A stretch of DNA of 64,000 nucleotides from NCBI GenBank assembly GCA_003280105.1, contig QCFX01000001.1:1-64000 (forward strand), in the 5' to 3' direction. The notes under the pieces are model-generated. The model did no database searches. It was not told the DNA's origin and saw only the letters and a program-made list of their open reading frames with translations. Position 1 is the stretch's first letter; every line of letters begins with the position of its first letter. Of the stretch, positions 9,472 to 35,201 are shown piece by piece. The translations under genes were made by a program, and so were the position numbers. The DNA is from Prochlorococcus sp. AG-363-N20. Lineage in GTDB: Bacteria; Cyanobacteriota; Cyanobacteriia; PCC-6307; Cyanobiaceae.

Positions 9472-10557
9472 TCAACCCTGAATAGAAACTGTTGCGTTGT
9501 CCTGGTTTCCAATCGCACTTGTGACTTTTGCAAAGTTGAAGCCCAATGCACGGAGAGCATGCCAGAAATGCCCCTGAAGGAAGAAGAATCCAAGGTAATA
9601 ATGGACATTCGTTAGAGCAGCACGTGTACTGTGTCCCCAGAATGCAGTTGCATCAGAAAGGTCGCCAGTATCAACCCAATAAGGAGAAATAGCAAACTTG
9701 AGCTGCAATGGCTCTCCATACCAAGCCTCTGGATAGACAGTGGTATTAGTTGCGCACCAAAAAGCTGCAACGATAGCCATCCAACCAATCCCTGCCAAAG
9801 ACCAAGAAAGGACTGCTTCAGCAGAAAGCAATTCAGCACCTTTGAATTTGCTGTATTCACCTAGGCGCTTTGATTCCCAAGGTGTTGAGCCAGCAATGAT
9901 GTGGAAAGCACCGCCAGTTATCTCCGCAAAGCCTAAAAAGGCATGCCCACCCATGACATCTTCAAGACTATCAATTCCTAGAAAGTCAAACTGACGCTGC
10001 CAGATCATCGATAGGTCAAGGTTGTAATTAACCTGTCGCACCGTATCCAATGCAGGGTCATAAATGCCATGAATCCTGGCCCATTCAACAAACCAGACAC
10101 ACGCAACACCCATAAAGATCAAATGGTGACCAAGGATGAAAGTCTGATTGTCAGGGTTTTTCCACTCAAGTTTGAATTTTGTGGCTTGTATTACTGAACT
10201 GTTCTCAACTTGCTCTTCAAAAAGAACAGCATGCAAGAGCCCACCTGCTCCATAAACCATGGAGAAAACTAAGTGGACGATCGCGATAGATGCAACACCT
10301 GCCCCTGTCCAGACTCCAGCTTCATCGAAGCCAATGCCAATAGAAGCCAAATGGGCAAGGAATAGAGAGCTCTGGTGCCCCATTGGCAAGGAGGGGTCAA
10401 AACGTGCAAGCTCCCAAAGGGTGCTCCCACCAGCCGCGAAGCAAATCAATCCAGTGTGCCCTACGTGCGAAGCAATGAATCGGCCTGAGCGGTTGGTGAC
10501 CACAGAATTACCAGCCCACCACCCGTAGGTGACCTCTGGATTTCCATAGGTCTGCAT
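9472..10557 (-). CDS. pcb: Prochlorophyte chlorophyll a2/b2-binding antenna protein (Pcb)
   Basis: This 361-residue thylakoid protein binds divinyl chlorophyll a and b and acts as light-harvesting antenna around photosystem I or II. It belongs to the six-helix CP43/IsiA family without the large lumenal loop of CP43. The start MQTYGNPEVTYGWWAGNSVV, the paired His residues in the helices (IASHVGHTG, ILGHHLIF, LGFFFLQGHFWHALRALGF) and the TVYPEAWYGEPL loop are diagnostic. Compared with the neighbouring paralogue it has a 7-residue insertion after GGAFHI (AGSTPWESKR region) and a different C-terminal tail. The ATG at 10557 matches the paralogue's start. Which photosystem it serves cannot be told from sequence alone. 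Confidence 0.97.
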   Translation of the reverse strand: MQTYGNPEVTYGWWAGNSVVTNRSGRFIASHVGHTGLICFAAGGSTLWELARFDPSLPMGHQSSLFLAHLASIGIGFDEAGVWTGAGVASIAIVHLVFSMVYGAGGLLHAVLFEEQVENSSVIQATKFKLEWKNPDNQTFILGHHLIFMGVACVWFVEWARIHGIYDPALDTVRQVNYNLDLSMIWQRQFDFLGIDSLEDVMGGHAFLGFAEITGGAFHIIAGSTPWESKRLGEYSKFKGAELLSAEAVLSWSLAGIGWMAIVAAFWCATNTTVYPEAWYGEPLQLKFAISPYWVDTGDLSDATAFWGHSTRAALTNVHYYLGFFFLQGHFWHALRALGFNFAKVTSAIGNQDNATVSIQG

Positions 10558-10943
10558 GATTTTTAAGTGATAAAGGCAGAAATAACCTTTGAACACTACA
10601 AGCTGCTCAATTCATATGCGCGGAATAGTTAAAGGTCTTTATTTAGCGAGTTGTAAGCCATCCACAAAACAAGGAGGATTTTGGTTTCCAAAGAGGAGGA
10701 ATTTCAGCAAATCCCTCTAAAAACCCTACTTGCTCAAATCTTCAAAATGGTTGATGCATAAGGCTTCTCAGCAAATCTACCTCGAAGACCTTGAATAAGA
10801 ATCTCAATGAAATTTTTTCGCGTCCGCTGTTTTTTTCTATTTCACAAAATTTTCTAAAATTTCTTGACTTTTAAAAAAATGGTTTTTTTATCCGAAAAAT
10901 TTTCTTGCTTTTAGCAATTGAGGCTCTAAATAAGGCAAAAAAA

Positions 10944-10991: not shown

Positions 10992-12047
10992 CTAAAGAGT
11001 TCTGGGTATCCCATAAGGGCCTGTTCTATTCCAAAGGCGCTTGAAGTCAAAGCCCATGGCACGAAGTGCATGCCAAAGGTGGCCTTGTATATAGAAGAAG
11101 CCCAAGTAATAGTGAACATTCACCAGAGCAGCACGAGTTGAATGTCCAAAGAATGCTGTTGCATCAGAAAGGTCGCCAGTATCAACCCAATAAGGAGCAA
11201 TTCCAAATTTGAGCTGTAGCGGTTCTCCATACCAAGCTTCTGGATAAACAGTGGTATTAGTTGCACACCAGAAGGCCGCAACAACTGCCATCCAACCAAT
11301 CCCGGCTAAAGACCAAGACAGAATCGCTTCTGCAGAAAGAACATTGGCTCCTTTGAACTCGGTGTATTCCCCTATTTGCTTAGTTGCAATGTGGAAAGCA
11401 CCACCACCAATTTGGAAGAAAGCTAAGAATGCGTGACCACCCATAACATCCTCAAGACTGTCAATAGAAAGGAAGTCAAATTGATGGTTCCAGATCTGAG
11501 TTAGGTCAAGGTTGTAATTAACTTGGCGGACAGCCTCGATTGCTGGGTCATAAATGCCATGAACTCTGGCCCATTCAACGAACCAGATATTGGCAATTCC
11601 AAAAAAGATCAAATGGTGACCAAGGATAAAAGTCTGGTTGTCTGGATTGTCCCATTCCAACTTGAACTTTCTTGCTTGGATGATTTCTGAGTCTTGTATG
11701 TCCTCTTCAAAAAGGACAGCATGAAGTAGTCCACCTGCTCCATAAACCATGGAGAAGATCAAATGGAGAATGCTTATGGTGACAACACCTGCCCCTGTCC
11801 AGACTCCAGCTTCATCGAACCCTATGCCGATAGAAGCCAAATGGGAAATGTATAGCGAGCTTTGATGACCCATTGGTAAAGAAGGGTCAAAGCGAGCAAG
11901 CTCCCAAAGGGTGTTTGCACCAGCCGCGAAGCAAATCAATCCTGTATGCGCTGCATGCGAGGCAATGAATCGGCCTGAGCGGTTAGTCACCATAGAATTA
12001 CCAGCCCACCACCCGTAGGTGACGTCTGGATTTCCATAGGTTTGCAT
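10992..12047 (-). CDS. pcb: Prochlorophyte chlorophyll a2/b2-binding antenna protein (Pcb), paralogue
   Basis: This 351-residue antenna protein is closely related to the Pcb encoded 430 bp downstream, with the same six-helix architecture and chlorophyll-ligating His pattern (IASHAAHTG, GHHLIFFG, GFFYIQGHLWHALRAMGF). It differs by lacking the 7-residue insertion after GGAFHI and by its basic tail FKRLWNRTGPYGIPRTL. The tandem pair probably arose by duplication and then diverged at the loop and tail, the regions most likely to contact a photosystem core. About 400 bp of non-coding DNA upstream presumably contains the promoter. Confidence 0.97.
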   Translation of the reverse strand: MQTYGNPDVTYGWWAGNSMVTNRSGRFIASHAAHTGLICFAAGANTLWELARFDPSLPMGHQSSLYISHLASIGIGFDEAGVWTGAGVVTISILHLIFSMVYGAGGLLHAVLFEEDIQDSEIIQARKFKLEWDNPDNQTFILGHHLIFFGIANIWFVEWARVHGIYDPAIEAVRQVNYNLDLTQIWNHQFDFLSIDSLEDVMGGHAFLAFFQIGGGAFHIATKQIGEYTEFKGANVLSAEAILSWSLAGIGWMAVVAAFWCATNTTVYPEAWYGEPLQLKFGIAPYWVDTGDLSDATAFFGHSTRAALVNVHYYLGFFYIQGHLWHALRAMGFDFKRLWNRTGPYGIPRTL

Positions 12048-16400: not shown

Positions 16401-16730
16401 CTACGGAAATACTGAAAATGCCATTCCCACAGCTCCAACAGTGAATATCCCCATAGGAAGCGAGCCAATTGCAACTAATCCCATTGGGACCAATCCAATT
16501 GCAAAGATTACTCTCGGTGCAAGGCCAACAGCTACAAGCCTTCGCCATTTATATTGCGCTTCAAAAGAATTAGAGATTTCTTGGCCCTTTTCAGATCCCA
16601 AGTTTCTCAAGTATCTGGGGCATTTATTATCAATAGAATAGTTATTTCTGCTTAGGCATAGCATCAAGAAACAACAAAGTCTTAAAAAGGTCATTAAATC
16701 ATAAGTCACAGATCTTAAAAAATTACTCAC
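16401..16730 (-). CDS. Gly-repeat membrane protein
   Basis: The 109-residue protein has a polar N-terminal half with four Cys residues and a C-terminal hydrophobic half built of a repeated unit: AVGLAP, AIGLVPMG, AIGSLPMG, TVGAVGM. The same repeat appears in the 147-residue protein at 34758-35201. Regular Gly and Pro-Met-Gly spacing argues for tight packing of strands or helices in a membrane. I do not recognise a named family. The start of the coding part could be inside this frame. Confidence 0.6.
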   Translation of the reverse strand: MSNFLRSVTYDLMTFLRLCCFLMLCLSRNNYSIDNKCPRYLRNLGSEKGQEISNSFEAQYKWRRLVAVGLAPRVIFAIGLVPMGLVAIGSLPMGIFTVGAVGMAFSVFP

Positions 16731-28216: not shown

Positions 28217-28403
28217 TTCATAGAGGGTTGAGATGATAATTAAGAATAGTCTTGCTCATTAGCGATTTCAGGCATAAAAGTGTGTTTGCAAATAAAGAAC
28301 AAGCAGAAAACTGTACTTAATAAGTGTTAAACCAATAAATATCTAACCGGGGAATCAAAAGTGAATCACAATGACTCAATGAAGCAATTGCAACTTGAAG
28401 TTT

Positions 28404-28583
28404 CTAGAACGCCATTAATTGGGCATTATGGAGACGCTTCGCTTTCTGTTTTCTAGAAAAATGATTCGCATTTAAAGCTGTTTGGTCGTCATACTTAGAT
28501 CCATGAGTGGTTGAAATTAACTGCGCCTTATGAAGTCGTTCAGCTTTTTTAATGTGAGTACGAATCAACGAAAGAGAGTTCAT
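28404..28583 (-). CDS. 59-residue protein with repeated helix motif
   Basis: The ATG at 28583 has a GGAGG site 6 nt upstream, so the longer open frame to 28667 is not needed. The product is basic and helical and contains a short internal repeat: KKAERLHKAQLI and, near its end, KQKAKRLHNAQLM. The repeat makes an amphipathic basic helix twice, consistent with nucleic acid or membrane binding. Function unknown. Confidence 0.7.
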   Translation of the reverse strand: MNSLSLIRTHIKKAERLHKAQLISTTHGSKYDDQTALNANHFSRKQKAKRLHNAQLMAF

Positions 28584-28806
28584 GACATCCTCCGTAATGG
28601 CAGCCCCGTTCCCTACTGCCATGACATGCATCCCCCCGAGGGGACGAACGTAGTAAAAGTGTAGCAACCGATACCAAAACCTGCCGTCGGTTGGCTTTGT
28701 TCTTCAAGGAGAAGGTCTGGACTCTTTCATTTGATTCGTATAGGAGGTATTAAAGTCATACAACCTGCCTACTTCTCAATTATTTGCGCTTATTTCTATT
28801 ATTAAG

Positions 28807-30948: not shown

Positions 30949-31140
30949 ATGGCCGTTGCTACATCAGCCAAACCATCAGTCAAAGCCAACAAGTCAACTG
31001 GGGCCAAAACCCAGTCAAGGTACGCCTCAACTCAATCAAGGTTCGCGAGCAGCAAGCTTATACAGAACTTGGGCTCCTCAAATAATGGGGTGCAGTTTTC
31101 CTTCGAGGGGGAGCTAAGAACAGCTCATGGAAGAGATTAA
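30949..31140 (+). CDS. Hypothetical small protein
   Basis: The 63-residue frame has low-complexity Ser/Lys/Thr content (KANKSTGAKTQSRYASTQSR) and a C-terminal VQFSFEGELR. The opening Ala/Thr-rich part could be disordered. It is open and starts at ATG, but coding evidence is moderate. Confidence 0.45.
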   Translation: MAVATSAKPSVKANKSTGAKTQSRYASTQSRFASSKLIQNLGSSNNGVQFSFEGELRTAHGRD

Positions 31141-31257
31141 AAAGACGAAGCTATGTTATTATTGCCAAAGATATCGAAGCCCAATGATTAGCAAAAATGC
31201 ATTTACAGCAAAATGCACTTATGCACAAATGTTTATGTAATTAATATTCAAGGTTTA

Positions 31258-32742
31258 ATGTTCATGATAAAGCCTTTAAATATAGCCAGGAAAGTATTTA
31301 TTGGCGTATTTTCTATTAGTTTGATCTCCTCAGTATCGCTTTTAACTGAGCATGAACATTGCAAAAACAATTCTGACTCTACAATATATAAAGCATGTGG
31401 CATTGCATCAATATTGAGCTCTCCGGGCAAATCATTACTCGAAGGCTATATTTCAACTTATAGATTAATGAGCAATTATATACGTTTTAGCAGCTTTGGA
31501 ACCCATGGCTTGTACTCTGTAGAGCCAAACATAACCAAGGATCGCTTTAAAGACCTCTCGAAAGAATTTACATTTAATTATAAACCTGAAGAGCGAACAA
31601 AAGCAGGCTATCTAATACTCTCTAGAGCAGACCCAATAAAAGAAGGGAAACCATCTGTCGAGTTATGGGATATGAATATGCAGAGAAGAATTCATACATA
31701 TAGATTTGATTATGGCAGTATAAACAAACTATCAGAAATCAAATCTGATATAAATTCCAGGTATTTACATCCTTTATTACTAGAAGATGGTTCCTTAATA
31801 TTTAATGCTTACCCTTCTAGAACTTTAATTAAAGTTGATAAATGTGGAGATTATATATCACATAATGCCCATCTACTATTCCATCACAGCATTGAAATGG
31901 ATGAGTTATCCAGAATATATGTACCGACCAGGAAAAGGCCTGAAGATATTGATCTAAATCAACATGTTAAGGATTTTTGGGAAGAAGGTTTTGCTGTATT
32001 AGATCAAGATCTTGAGGTATTGAATGAATATTGGTTACTAGATATATATAAAAAAGAAGGGCTACTGGCTGATTTATATGGAAGGAAGCTTACACCAACT
32101 GATCCTTTTCATTTAAATGACGTCGAACCATTCATAAGGCAAGATGGGTCAGTAATCGCATTACTGAGTCTCGCAACTCAATCTAGTCTATTAGCTTATG
32201 ACATAAAAGAAAACTCATTGATTTGGAAAATAGAGAGAGCAACGACTCTTCAACACGATATAGATGTTATAAATCAATCAAATCAACTTATAGAAATAGG
32301 TATTTTTAATAATAATGCTATGAATTATGTGAAGGGTAGAAGCTTAGGAAATGAATTTGTTACCTTTAAAAAGCTACCAACAAAATCAACCGATAAGATG
32401 CTTTTAATAGCTGATAAATCTACTCATGCTGATTATGAGGTAAATCGATTAAATTTTGATAGTTTAGAAGCTAAATATAGACCTAAGACATTTACAGAAG
32501 GAAGATCTGACTACCTTCAAGAGAATAATAGCCTGATGGTCGAAGAGACAAATCACGGGAGATTGATTGAAATTGATATTGATACTAAAAAAATTCTTTG
32601 GCAATATGTAAATCAATTAGACAAGAATAGTTCACCATATACGCTTAACTGGGCCAGAAGGTTGAAGAAACTACCTGGCAGGTTGAATGAGAGCATATTT
32701 ATGGCTTGTGAGTCCAACTCAAAAGAATCTATTAAGTTTTAA
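31258..32742 (+). CDS. Arylsulfotransferase-like (ASST) beta-propeller protein
   Basis: The 494-residue protein has an N-terminal membrane anchor or signal, then a large beta-propeller-like body. Motifs with His resemble the arylsulfotransferase family: LFHHSIEMDEL, TTLQHDIDVI, and EETNHGRLIEIDIDTKKILW near the C-terminus. In well-studied members these His form a PAPS-independent sulfate relay; whether all are intact here cannot be checked without alignment. It heads a four-gene block with two small membrane proteins and a sulfotransferase. The start ATG at 31258 follows AAGG at a 4-nt distance. AT-rich codon use suggests transfer or relaxed selection. Confidence 0.75.
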   Translation: MFMIKPLNIARKVFIGVFSISLISSVSLLTEHEHCKNNSDSTIYKACGIASILSSPGKSLLEGYISTYRLMSNYIRFSSFGTHGLYSVEPNITKDRFKDLSKEFTFNYKPEERTKAGYLILSRADPIKEGKPSVELWDMNMQRRIHTYRFDYGSINKLSEIKSDINSRYLHPLLLEDGSLIFNAYPSRTLIKVDKCGDYISHNAHLLFHHSIEMDELSRIYVPTRKRPEDIDLNQHVKDFWEEGFAVLDQDLEVLNEYWLLDIYKKEGLLADLYGRKLTPTDPFHLNDVEPFIRQDGSVIALLSLATQSSLLAYDIKENSLIWKIERATTLQHDIDVINQSNQLIEIGIFNNNAMNYVKGRSLGNEFVTFKKLPTKSTDKMLLIADKSTHADYEVNRLNFDSLEAKYRPKTFTEGRSDYLQENNSLMVEETNHGRLIEIDIDTKKILWQYVNQLDKNSSPYTLNWARRLKKLPGRLNESIFMACESNSKESIKF

Positions 32743-32743
32743 A

Positions 32744-33016
32744 ATGAACTACAAAAAGATTGCTCTATACTCGTTCTTCCTTTCAGCTCTCTTCACACAA
32801 CCAGCACATGCGTATGCAGGACCAGGAGTTGCCTTAGGTGCAGTCATAGTGTTTCTAACGGTTGTTTTTGCTTTTCTTGCATCTACTTTCTTAAGTCTAA
32901 TCAACTTCATAAAAGGCTTATTTAAACAAAATAATGATAGAGGTGTTGATAGCAAAGAGGTATCTAGTACAGAAAGTAGTGAGGGAACTAATTCAAAAGA
33001 AATTAACAAGTCATGA
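32744..33016 (+). CDS. Small membrane protein with AYAGPG signal
   Basis: The 90-residue protein has a signal peptide (MNYKKIALYSFFLSALFTQP, cleavage near AHA), then YAGPGVALGAVIVFLTVVFA, a Gly-rich start of a membrane helix, and a polar Ser/Lys tail. It starts one base after the stop of the ASST-like gene. The YAGPG signature recurs in small proteins beside surface-polysaccharide genes; that is a family-level impression. It may anchor or couple the two enzymes. Confidence 0.7.
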   Translation: MNYKKIALYSFFLSALFTQPAHAYAGPGVALGAVIVFLTVVFAFLASTFLSLINFIKGLFKQNNDRGVDSKEVSSTESSEGTNSKEINKS

Positions 33017-33327
33017 TTACAATATTGATATTAGTTGCAATCACATCCTTATGTATAAGAAGATACTGTAGGACTATTAACTTCTCTGCTTCATTTGTAA
33101 ACTATAAATCTGCAATTAAAAAACTAAATCAGATCTCAAATAAATCGCAAGATCCAAGACCAATTCTCGATGCGATCTCTATATCGGGTTTAAAACTTTT
33201 AATTAAATTAATTTTAGTTTTCCTGCCATATTTTCTTTGTTTTATACTAATATCAAATACAGGATTACCAATATTTTTAATACTGTTTATTCCTTCAATC
33301 CCATACATATTCTTATTAAAAAAATAA
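33013..33327 (+). CDS. Small membrane protein
   Basis: The 104-residue protein starts at an ATG overlapping the upstream stop (ATGA), which marks translational coupling. It has a hydrophobic N-terminus and a second hydrophobic block (LIKLILVFLPYFLCFILI) near the C-terminus, with a basic middle. Function unknown. Confidence 0.65.
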   Translation: MITILILVAITSLCIRRYCRTINFSASFVNYKSAIKKLNQISNKSQDPRPILDAISISGLKLLIKLILVFLPYFLCFILISNTGLPIFLILFIPSIPYIFLLKK

Positions 33328-34377
33328 ATGTCAGCCTATACTAATCTAGATAAATCTCTCCATCGATTGTTCCTAGGTAATTCGCAATTATCAGAGTTTT
33401 TATATGATAGACTTCTTAAAAAAGGTCAAAGCAAAGAGATAGATTCCTGTAATCACATATTCGTCACTGGTCTTGCACGTTCGGGTACAACAGCAATTTT
33501 AAATAAGTTATATGCATCTCAAAAAATCGGAAGTTTCCTGTATAAGCATATGCCATTTATACTTTCTCCTACCTTGGCCAAAGTCTATTCGAATTTAAAT
33601 TCAAGTCAAAAGGTTAAGGGAGTTGAGAGATTACATAAAGATTCTATTTACATTAATAGTCATTCACCTGAATGCTTAGATGAGGTTTTTTGGATTAAAT
33701 CATTTCCTCACCTAAAGAAGATACATCCAGTTGAATATCAAAACATATCAAATGCAGTTCTTTCCGGCTATAGCTATTTACTTAGCAGTTTTGCGAAAAT
33801 ACAAAATCAAAGCCGTATGCTTATTAAAAATAATAATCATCATATTCGATTAAAGGTTCTCTCAAAATATTTCCCAAACTCTCATTTCCTCTGCCTCATA
33901 AGAGATCCGATAGCTCATTCAAGATCACTCCTGTCTCAACATCTAAACTTTCTCGAGATTCACCAGAAAGATCCTTTCGCACTAGAATATATGAATTTAA
34001 TAGGTCATTATGAATTTGGTCAAAACTGCATTCCATTTTCATACTCTTCAGATAATCAAAAATGGTATTCAGGCTTAAATAAATTAACTCTTGAATATTG
34101 GTTATTGCAATGGATCAATACTTACAAATGGATATTTAATAGCGATATAGCTAATTATAAAAATGTGCACATAATCGTATACGAGAGGATATGCGAAAGC
34201 ACCCATCTTTTTACACAGATATGTGAGTTAACAGGTCTTCCAACTTCCTATTTTGGTTTGCCACTCAAATCATCAAATTCAAATTGGACTTTAGAGGATC
34301 TTAACGTGAAAAGATCTATTTTAGATGAAGCTATGGATACTTATAATTCTCTATTAAAGCAATCATTTAATCCATGA
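33328..34377 (+). CDS. PAPS-dependent sulfotransferase family protein
   Basis: The 349-residue protein begins with a basic stretch, then the sulfotransferase nucleotide motif FVTGLARSGTTAILNKLY (residues about 46-63), which binds the 5' phosphosulfate of PAPS. FLCLIRDPIAHSRSLLSQH provides the Arg and Ser of the 3'-phosphate site. It follows the upstream membrane protein without a gap (TAAATG). Sulfotransferases of this class modify carbohydrates or polysaccharides; the acceptor is not known. Its pairing with an ASST-like protein in one block is unusual. Confidence 0.85.
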   Translation: MSAYTNLDKSLHRLFLGNSQLSEFLYDRLLKKGQSKEIDSCNHIFVTGLARSGTTAILNKLYASQKIGSFLYKHMPFILSPTLAKVYSNLNSSQKVKGVERLHKDSIYINSHSPECLDEVFWIKSFPHLKKIHPVEYQNISNAVLSGYSYLLSSFAKIQNQSRMLIKNNNHHIRLKVLSKYFPNSHFLCLIRDPIAHSRSLLSQHLNFLEIHQKDPFALEYMNLIGHYEFGQNCIPFSYSSDNQKWYSGLNKLTLEYWLLQWINTYKWIFNSDIANYKNVHIIVYERICESTHLFTQICELTGLPTSYFGLPLKSSNSNWTLEDLNVKRSILDEAMDTYNSLLKQSFNP

Positions 34378-34757: not shown

Positions 34758-35201
34758 ATGGCAAGCTTAAACAGCTCAAAGAAACAAACCTCTGAAGGGC
34801 CAGCGCATTGTGGAAGTCAACCTAAAAAAATTGCCATAGGTATAGCTCCCCTTGGATTTATTTCCATTGGAATTGTCCCAATGGGAATTATCAGTATTGG
34901 GGTTGTCCCAATGGGAGTTGTGTCTCTTGGCGTTGTTGCTATGGGAGTCATCAACGCATCAATAGTGGGAATGGGGATTTTTTCAGCCGGAATCACCACT
35001 ATGGGCCTGAAAGTTTGGAGCCCAGAAGGAGCCTCTCTTGAACAAATAATTGAAAGTAATAAACCAATTTCATCGCAAAACATTTATGCATTCCCAAATA
35101 GGACTCAGGCACAGGAAGAGGCAAAAAAGCTTGGGTGCTTAGGTGTTCACAAAATGGGTAACAAATGGATGCCATGTGCGACTCATGGAGTTATTAAATA
35201 A
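34758..35201 (+). CDS. Gly-repeat membrane protein fused to DUF3721
   Basis: The 147-residue protein starts with a polar region, then a hydrophobic repeat with Gly at steady spacing (AIGIAPLG, SIGIVPMG, SIGVVPMG, SLGVVAMG, and on to GMGIFSAGITTMG). After a linker comes the DUF3721 unit AFPNRTQAQEEAKKLGCLGV followed by HKMGNKWMPCATH. The repeat matches the one in the protein at 16401-16730. It follows the His-rich DUF3721 lipoprotein by two bases. A membrane-bound metal-handling pair is the working guess. Confidence 0.75.
   Translation: MASLNSSKKQTSEGPAHCGSQPKKIAIGIAPLGFISIGIVPMGIISIGVVPMGVVSLGVVAMGVINASIVGMGIFSAGITTMGLKVWSPEGASLEQIIESNKPISSQNIYAFPNRTQAQEEAKKLGCLGVHKMGNKWMPCATHGVIK

Follow-up and report, generated by a model that had tools for sequence, protein, structure and literature searches.

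Why should genes for an ASST-like protein and a PAPS-type sulfotransferase (ST) stand together in one compact block, and does sulfate pass from one enzyme to the other? PAPS, which donates sulfate in the cytoplasm, should not be available beyond the inner membrane. For most bacterial ASSTs, neither the natural donor nor the role is known (PMC13426309). A widely conserved block in which an exported ASST accompanies an enzyme that loads sulfate from PAPS points to the likely donor-maker and opens the donor question to direct testing. Here, we analyzed such a block in a 64,000-nucleotide stretch of DNA from Prochlorococcus sp. AG-363-N20 (hereafter, the window), whose source assembly measures 1.46 Mb, is 79% complete, and finds its closest matches in Prochlorococcus. 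A preliminary description of this DNA had proposed a joint cassette for sulfation or sulfate relay.

Gene organization of the cassette

ORF reading gave four frames on the + strand within 31258-34377, all of them open:

31258..32742, + strand, ASST-like protein (PF14269), 494 aa, stop codon TAA at 32740-32742
32744..33016, + strand, sm1, small single-pass membrane protein, 90 aa
33013..33327, + strand, sm2, three-TM membrane protein, 104 aa
33328..34377, + strand, ST, PAPS-type sulfotransferase (PF13469), 349 aa

The ASST-like frame has a further in-frame ATG at 31213. One base separates ASST from sm1, sm1 and sm2 share an ATGA overlap, and ST begins directly after the sm2 stop; the motifs FVTGLARSGTTA and AYAGPG are both present in the translations. 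The frames, spacings, and motifs of the preliminary description were thus confirmed to the base. Its suggestion that local AT-richness hints at transfer did not survive comparison with neighboring genes. GC3 is 0.21-0.28 in the cassette versus 0.25-0.31 in serA, cobW, and murD of the window, and is lower only in sm2, a short membrane protein. Because these values are near those of other window genes, base composition shows no sign of transfer, and we rejected transfer as read from AT-richness.

In the related genome G026, the genes that flank the cassette on either side have counterparts approximately 2.2 kb apart, which share a strand and keep their order but enclose no cassette. This empty slot and the patchy distribution of the cassette point to gain or loss at the slot. 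A 63-aa protein (QSRYASTQSRF...NGVQFSF...RTAHGRD) encoded at 30949-31140 of the window, just upstream of the cassette, is kept in relatives and lies at the edge of the variable slot. The protein just downstream of the cassette (34758-35201) is widespread in relatives; it and the protein at 16401-16730 carry GIVPMGIISIG-type repeat units and are possibly related to each other.

Recurrence in other genomes

The cassette is a real, conserved system. The evidence comes from an ST-alignment scan of 84,980 species, in which the best 80 of 183 relatives were kept, and from profile searches of their ORFs, which gave a set of 83 distinct ST loci. In that set, sm1 is present in 77 of the 83 loci, and the HMM detected a nearby ASST in 63 of the 69 loci with at least 2.2 kb of upstream sequence; L055 is a 64th, its ASST genes having been missed by the HMM and found by Pfam. 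Of the remaining loci without a nearby ASST, four (L030, L045, L052, and L073) come from genomes with 3-5 ASST matches elsewhere. The commonest order is ASST-sm1-sm2-ST (34 loci), and nine more loci have ASST-sm1 followed by a long ST frame. Where the HMM missed sm2, an sm2-type ORF ahead of ST was found by eye in 10 of 11 loci.

The ST loci are distributed among Cyanobacteria, several classes of Proteobacteria, Bacteroidota, Desulfobacterota, Nitrospinota (Nitrospina), and Verrucomicrobiota, and their record titles also include Cerasicoccus and Chitinispirillaceae. The exact phylum count is uncertain since some MAG titles look mislabelled. Chance alone could not plausibly bring the same gene set together in dozens of unrelated genomes. 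The preliminary description had held that an order unique to this genome would weaken the system idea; the gene-neighborhood search shows that the order recurs across many phyla. No ST relatives were found in viral contigs at the sensitivity used, which gives no indication of a phage link.

Among 300 Cyanobiaceae genomes drawn, a search with the window ASST found relatives in 10, and the co-occurrence count below gave ASST in 11. Of the Cyanobiaceae neighborhoods, five (L013 and L016-L019) keep all four genes in the order of the window and two (L015 and L020) have a rearranged block. In L020 (9205-12572, genome G016), a C-terminal ASST remnant stands ahead of sm1 and, past ST, the other strand encodes a complete ASST; this locus is a rearranged cassette.

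Co-occurrence of ST and ASST

In the Cyanobiaceae set, ASST occurs in 8 of the 8 genomes with a full-length ST versus 3 of the 292 others. These three are G026, whose copy has lost the catalytic His, G121, where the gene runs off the end of its contig, and G242, which seems to belong to a different lineage. Many other Cyanobiaceae genomes gave weak ST matches (E about 1e-4 to 1e-8); these correspond to short stretches of other sulfotransferases and were left uncounted. The alphaproteobacterial family of G302 (62 genomes) behaves in the same manner, with PF14269 in 8/8 strong-ST genomes versus 1/54 others, the single exception being a weak match. The hypergeometric p values are about 1e-13 for Cyanobiaceae and 3e-9 for the G302 family; they take genomes as independent, without correction for phylogeny, and hence overstate significance. 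ASST and ST distances are also correlated (Mantel r=0.77, 0 of 5000 permutations), partly through shared species history.

The ASST of G026 (L014:9030-10508, - strand) is a lone relative in a glycan-gene neighborhood, with QND in place of QHD, and a full-length ST of the cassette type was not found in that genome. One ST may also be accompanied by 2-4 ASSTs per genome or locus, which fits a single donor-maker serving several transferases. The four genes are almost certainly one functional unit. Co-occurrence and synteny show functional linkage, not the order of reactions.

Known ASSTs use aryl sulfate donors, and their natural roles are mostly unknown (PMC13426309), so that the ASST might simply scavenge sulfate from environmental aryl sulfates, while ST, despite its position, works on some other substrate and is no true partner. 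We regard this as scarcely credible; it leaves unexplained the near-obligate co-occurrence with a PAPS-ST, the APS kinase neighbors described below, and the presence of several ASSTs with one ST.

Structure and active site of the ASST-like protein

The window ASST matches Pfam PF14269 (E=2.4e-17; 63.7 bits against a cut-off of 27) and has an N-terminal membrane helix (hydropathy TM 13-31) followed by a beta-propeller. Its ASST-like character, inferred at first from motifs, was borne out by structure prediction. The AlphaFold model (pLDDT 87) is a propeller whose best PDB fold match is Cpz4 (9kf6; E 1.6e-11), with the next match more than 1000-fold weaker (4e-8). Since the TM-score of the Cpz4 match is only moderate (0.50), the likeness is a fold-level similarity. 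A 46-row ASST profile searched against the PDB matched 9kf4/9kf6 (E about 2e-9), with H-x-N, S-x-R, and QHD aligned, and weakly matched E. coli ASST 3elq (E=0.04) over residues 432-482, which include His436. The single window ASST gave no match in a phmmer search of the PDB or in a single-sequence search of genome contigs; the genome-collection search did find relatives. Sequence and model place the protein in the PF14269/ASST beta-propeller type, and aryl-sulfate transferase activity itself is inferred.

The AssT of E. coli CFT073 (3ELQ) follows a ping-pong mechanism with the catalytic His436 assisted by His252, His356, and Asn358, and the EcAST active site comprises His252, His356, Asn358, Arg374, Thr501, and His436 (PMC13426309). 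Alignment located the following equivalents in the window ASST:

31882-31884, + strand, codon of His209
from 32110, + strand, codons of His285 and Asn287
32254-32256, + strand, codon of His333

His333, within QHD, is the equivalent of EcAST His436, and the equivalence of His209 to EcAST His252 is inferred. His209, His285, and Asn287 are conserved in 46/46 aligned ASSTs and His333 in 45/46, the only copy without it being the orphan L014; Ser304 and Asp334 are also invariant across the 46. The catalytic His residues, the loss of which had been named as a weakness for the system idea, are therefore intact. The position of the assisting Arg374, assigned through the S-x-R of the Cpz4 alignment, is occupied by Ala306 in the window ASST and by Ala in L025; Arg is found in 40 of the 46 aligned ASSTs. 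As it varies in 6/46, this Arg is not family-defining.

Ala306 and the existence of the His-less orphan copy L014 in another genome would be expected if, in the window genome only, the ASST were no longer catalytic and the cassette decaying, an account that would leave the system idea good for relatives. We consider it improbable, because all four frames are open, neither the PAPS motifs nor His209, His285, Asn287, and His333 have been lost, and the Arg is replaced in other cassette copies as well (Asn in L019, Ser in L057, and Lys in L080).

Sulfotransferase and its membrane anchor

The window ST matches Pfam PF13469 (E=6.8e-12; 46.5 bits against a cut-off of 27) and contains the 5'-phosphosulfate loop GLARSGTT and the 3'-phosphate motif RDPxxxxxS (Arg192 and Ser200). 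G48, R51, G53, T55, R192, and S200 are invariant in the ST alignment. The sm2 protein is predicted to span the membrane three times, ends in a basic C-terminus, and is homologous to the N-terminal part of fused sm2-ST proteins. An ST frame of at least 440 aa, long enough for sm2 and ST in one protein, occurs in 15 loci, although 14 is the safer count because the extra length in L041 overlaps the ASST and sm1 frames. In the alignment of fused frames, sm2-like sequence is joined to the ST domain, and many of these proteins carry the motif SDHWKE. The AlphaFold model of one fused relative (pLDDT 90) finds its best PDB matches in mycobacterial STF1 and STF9; tyrosylprotein sulfotransferases (TPST) are also matched, as is Cpz8 (9kf2), further down the list.

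These fusions identify sm2 as the membrane anchor of ST. According to the positive-inside rule, a basic flank lies on the cytoplasmic side, and the basic C-terminus of sm2 would thus place the ST domain that follows it in the cytoplasm, where PAPS is. The location of ST at the cytoplasmic side of the membrane is inferred from this predicted topology.

The sm1 protein has a signal-like N-terminus ending in AHA; its mature part starts with YAGPG (Tyr codon 32813-32815), crosses the membrane once, and carries charged residues at its C-terminus. Y-x-G-P-G is present in every sm1 recognized across the ST loci, usually right after a site resembling an A-x-A signal-cleavage site and approximately 10 residues ahead of the single TM. 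No Pfam family was above cut-off for sm1 or sm2, and weak matches to unrelated families, including a Dot/Icm model, were disregarded as below cut-off.

The constancy of this Tyr raises the possibility that ST is a tyrosylprotein-type enzyme whose target is sm1, sulfotyrosine then serving as the aryl-sulfate donor or as a regulator of ASST. Protein-tyrosine sulfotransferases 1 and 2 are among the closest solved-structure sequence relatives of ST, and tyrosine sulfate is an aryl sulfate. However, the Tyr is predicted at the periplasmic mature N-terminus and PAPS is cytoplasmic, so that no sm1 could be charged a second time. TPSTs favor acidic surroundings, which are absent around the sm1 Tyr, and the invariant residue may be structural together with GPG. 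We therefore give sulfation of sm1 little chance of being the function of ST.

Neighboring genes

APS kinase makes PAPS, and 12 loci have an APS kinase gene at the cassette or close by, with several different arrangements represented. Some cyanobacterial loci are situated amid genes for GDP-mannose dehydratase, epimerase, UDP-glucose dehydrogenase, sugar transferase, and export. Such a setting would suit one envelope-sulfation pathway without any handover of sulfate, in which ST sulfates a lipid-linked glycan precursor from PAPS and ASST moves or removes sulfate later in the periplasm, and in Synechocystis the Wzx/Wzy glycan cluster for synechan includes two sulfotransferase genes (PMC8205485). 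Nevertheless, we think this pathway rather unlikely, as polysaccharide genes are absent near most non-cyanobacterial loci and several Prochlorococcus loci, and the near-absence of ASST without ST in the two families tested would remain unexplained, since ASST needs an aryl-type donor.

No carrier-making gene, such as a type III PKS, was found among the 25 commonest neighbor families listed, and the genes adjoining solo ASSTs indicate no consistent acceptor pathway. An aromatic amino acid lyase (PF00221 or MIO motif) near the cassette in the Bacteroidota MAGs L034, L035, L040, and L048 was considered as a phenol source and set aside, because these MAGs seem to be closely related and the enzyme could equally well be a histidine lyase; it is probably a shared neighbor of related genomes.

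Proposed sulfate relay

As the probable function of the cassette we favor a relay that moves sulfate across the inner membrane in two steps, although its chemistry, carrier, acceptor, and flipping step are unshown. Such a relay agrees with the strict association of ASST with ST, with the occurrence of several ASSTs alongside a single ST, with the neighboring APS kinase genes, and with the membrane-linked design. In the inferred first step, ST held by sm2 at the cytoplasmic face would use PAPS to sulfate a small carrier, aromatic or lipid in nature and possibly a phenol or quinol. The sulfated carrier would then reach the outer face of the inner membrane, perhaps with the help of sm1 or sm2. 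Finally, as the fold and conserved residues suggest, the exported, membrane-anchored ASST would take the sulfate onto His333 and then sulfate an acceptor in the envelope, probably a glycan. The joint cassette proposed in the preliminary description is supported by co-occurrence, APS kinase neighbors, sm2-ST fusions, and the Cpz4 fold match; the reaction is unshown. The absence of a carrier gene among the commonest neighbors, the lack of a consistent acceptor pathway beside solo ASSTs, Ala306 in the window ASST, and the unexplained role of sm1 weaken the relay.

Stf3 adds sulfate to menaquinone, a membrane lipid, and acts with CYP128 (PMC7404182), which makes a quinol or membrane phenol attractive as the carrier, although the carrier has not been identified. 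A more specific version remains tentative and may well be wrong: a membrane lipid, perhaps a quinol sulfate, would shuttle activated sulfate out, with sm2-anchored ST loading it, sm1 helping outside, and one or more ASSTs spending it on envelope glycans. If true, such a lipid shuttle in many bacteria would be the sulfate counterpart of lipid-linked sugar donors. The relay, if correct, would provide a general route for sulfating bacterial envelopes, those of abundant ocean cyanobacteria included, and would answer where sulfotransfer enzymes acting outside obtain their sulfate. Two unnamed families of small membrane proteins, sm1 and sm2, also gain a context.

Comparison with known systems

We did not find the block described in open-access papers; subscription papers and preprints were outside the search. 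In caprazamycin biosynthesis in Streptomyces, the PAPS-dependent Cpz8 sulfates a triketide pyrone, and the PAPS-independent ASST Cpz4 moves the sulfate to a sugar (PMC6731281). The cassette is most likely a membrane version of this known two-step sulfation principle. As with Cpz8/Cpz4, a PAPS-ST and an ASST are encoded as one functional unit, judged here from synteny and co-occurrence, and Cpz4 and Cpz8 are recovered among the structural matches of the ASST and ST models, Cpz4 as the best match of the former. In contrast to Cpz8/Cpz4, the block is compact and membrane-linked, with two extra membrane proteins and a membrane-anchored ST, is spread over many phyla outside antibiotic clusters, and has no type III PKS recognized among the 25 commonest neighbor families listed.

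The QHD stretch of the window family aligns with the His436 region of E. coli AssT, and its H-x-N spacing equals that of His356/Asn358. The sequences are nevertheless very distant (3elq, E=0.04), and the window ASST is without an equivalent of Arg374. The AssT gene of E. coli CFT073 adjoins dsbL/dsbI (PMC13426309) and has no ST beside it, whereas the window ASST sits with an ST. Stf3 and the mycobacterial STF family share the PAPS-type ST with the cassette, STF1 and STF9 being the best PDB matches of the ST model; unlike the cassette, Stf3 works with CYP128, and the available part of the source describes no ASST partner and, as far as it goes, presents the product as an end metabolite (PMC7404182). 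The Xss/synechan system of Synechocystis is likewise cyanobacterial and uses sulfotransferase genes to make a sulfated product outside the cell, but these belong to a Wzx/Wzy cluster of many glycosyltransferases, with no ASST mentioned in the portion of the source at hand (PMC8205485).

Other features of the window

Positions 28400-28680 have multiple matches within several related genomes and possibly represent a repeated element or a small gene family. Two adjoining pcb-type antenna genes, consistent with and supporting a Prochlorococcus origin, lie at 9472-10596 and 10992-12047.
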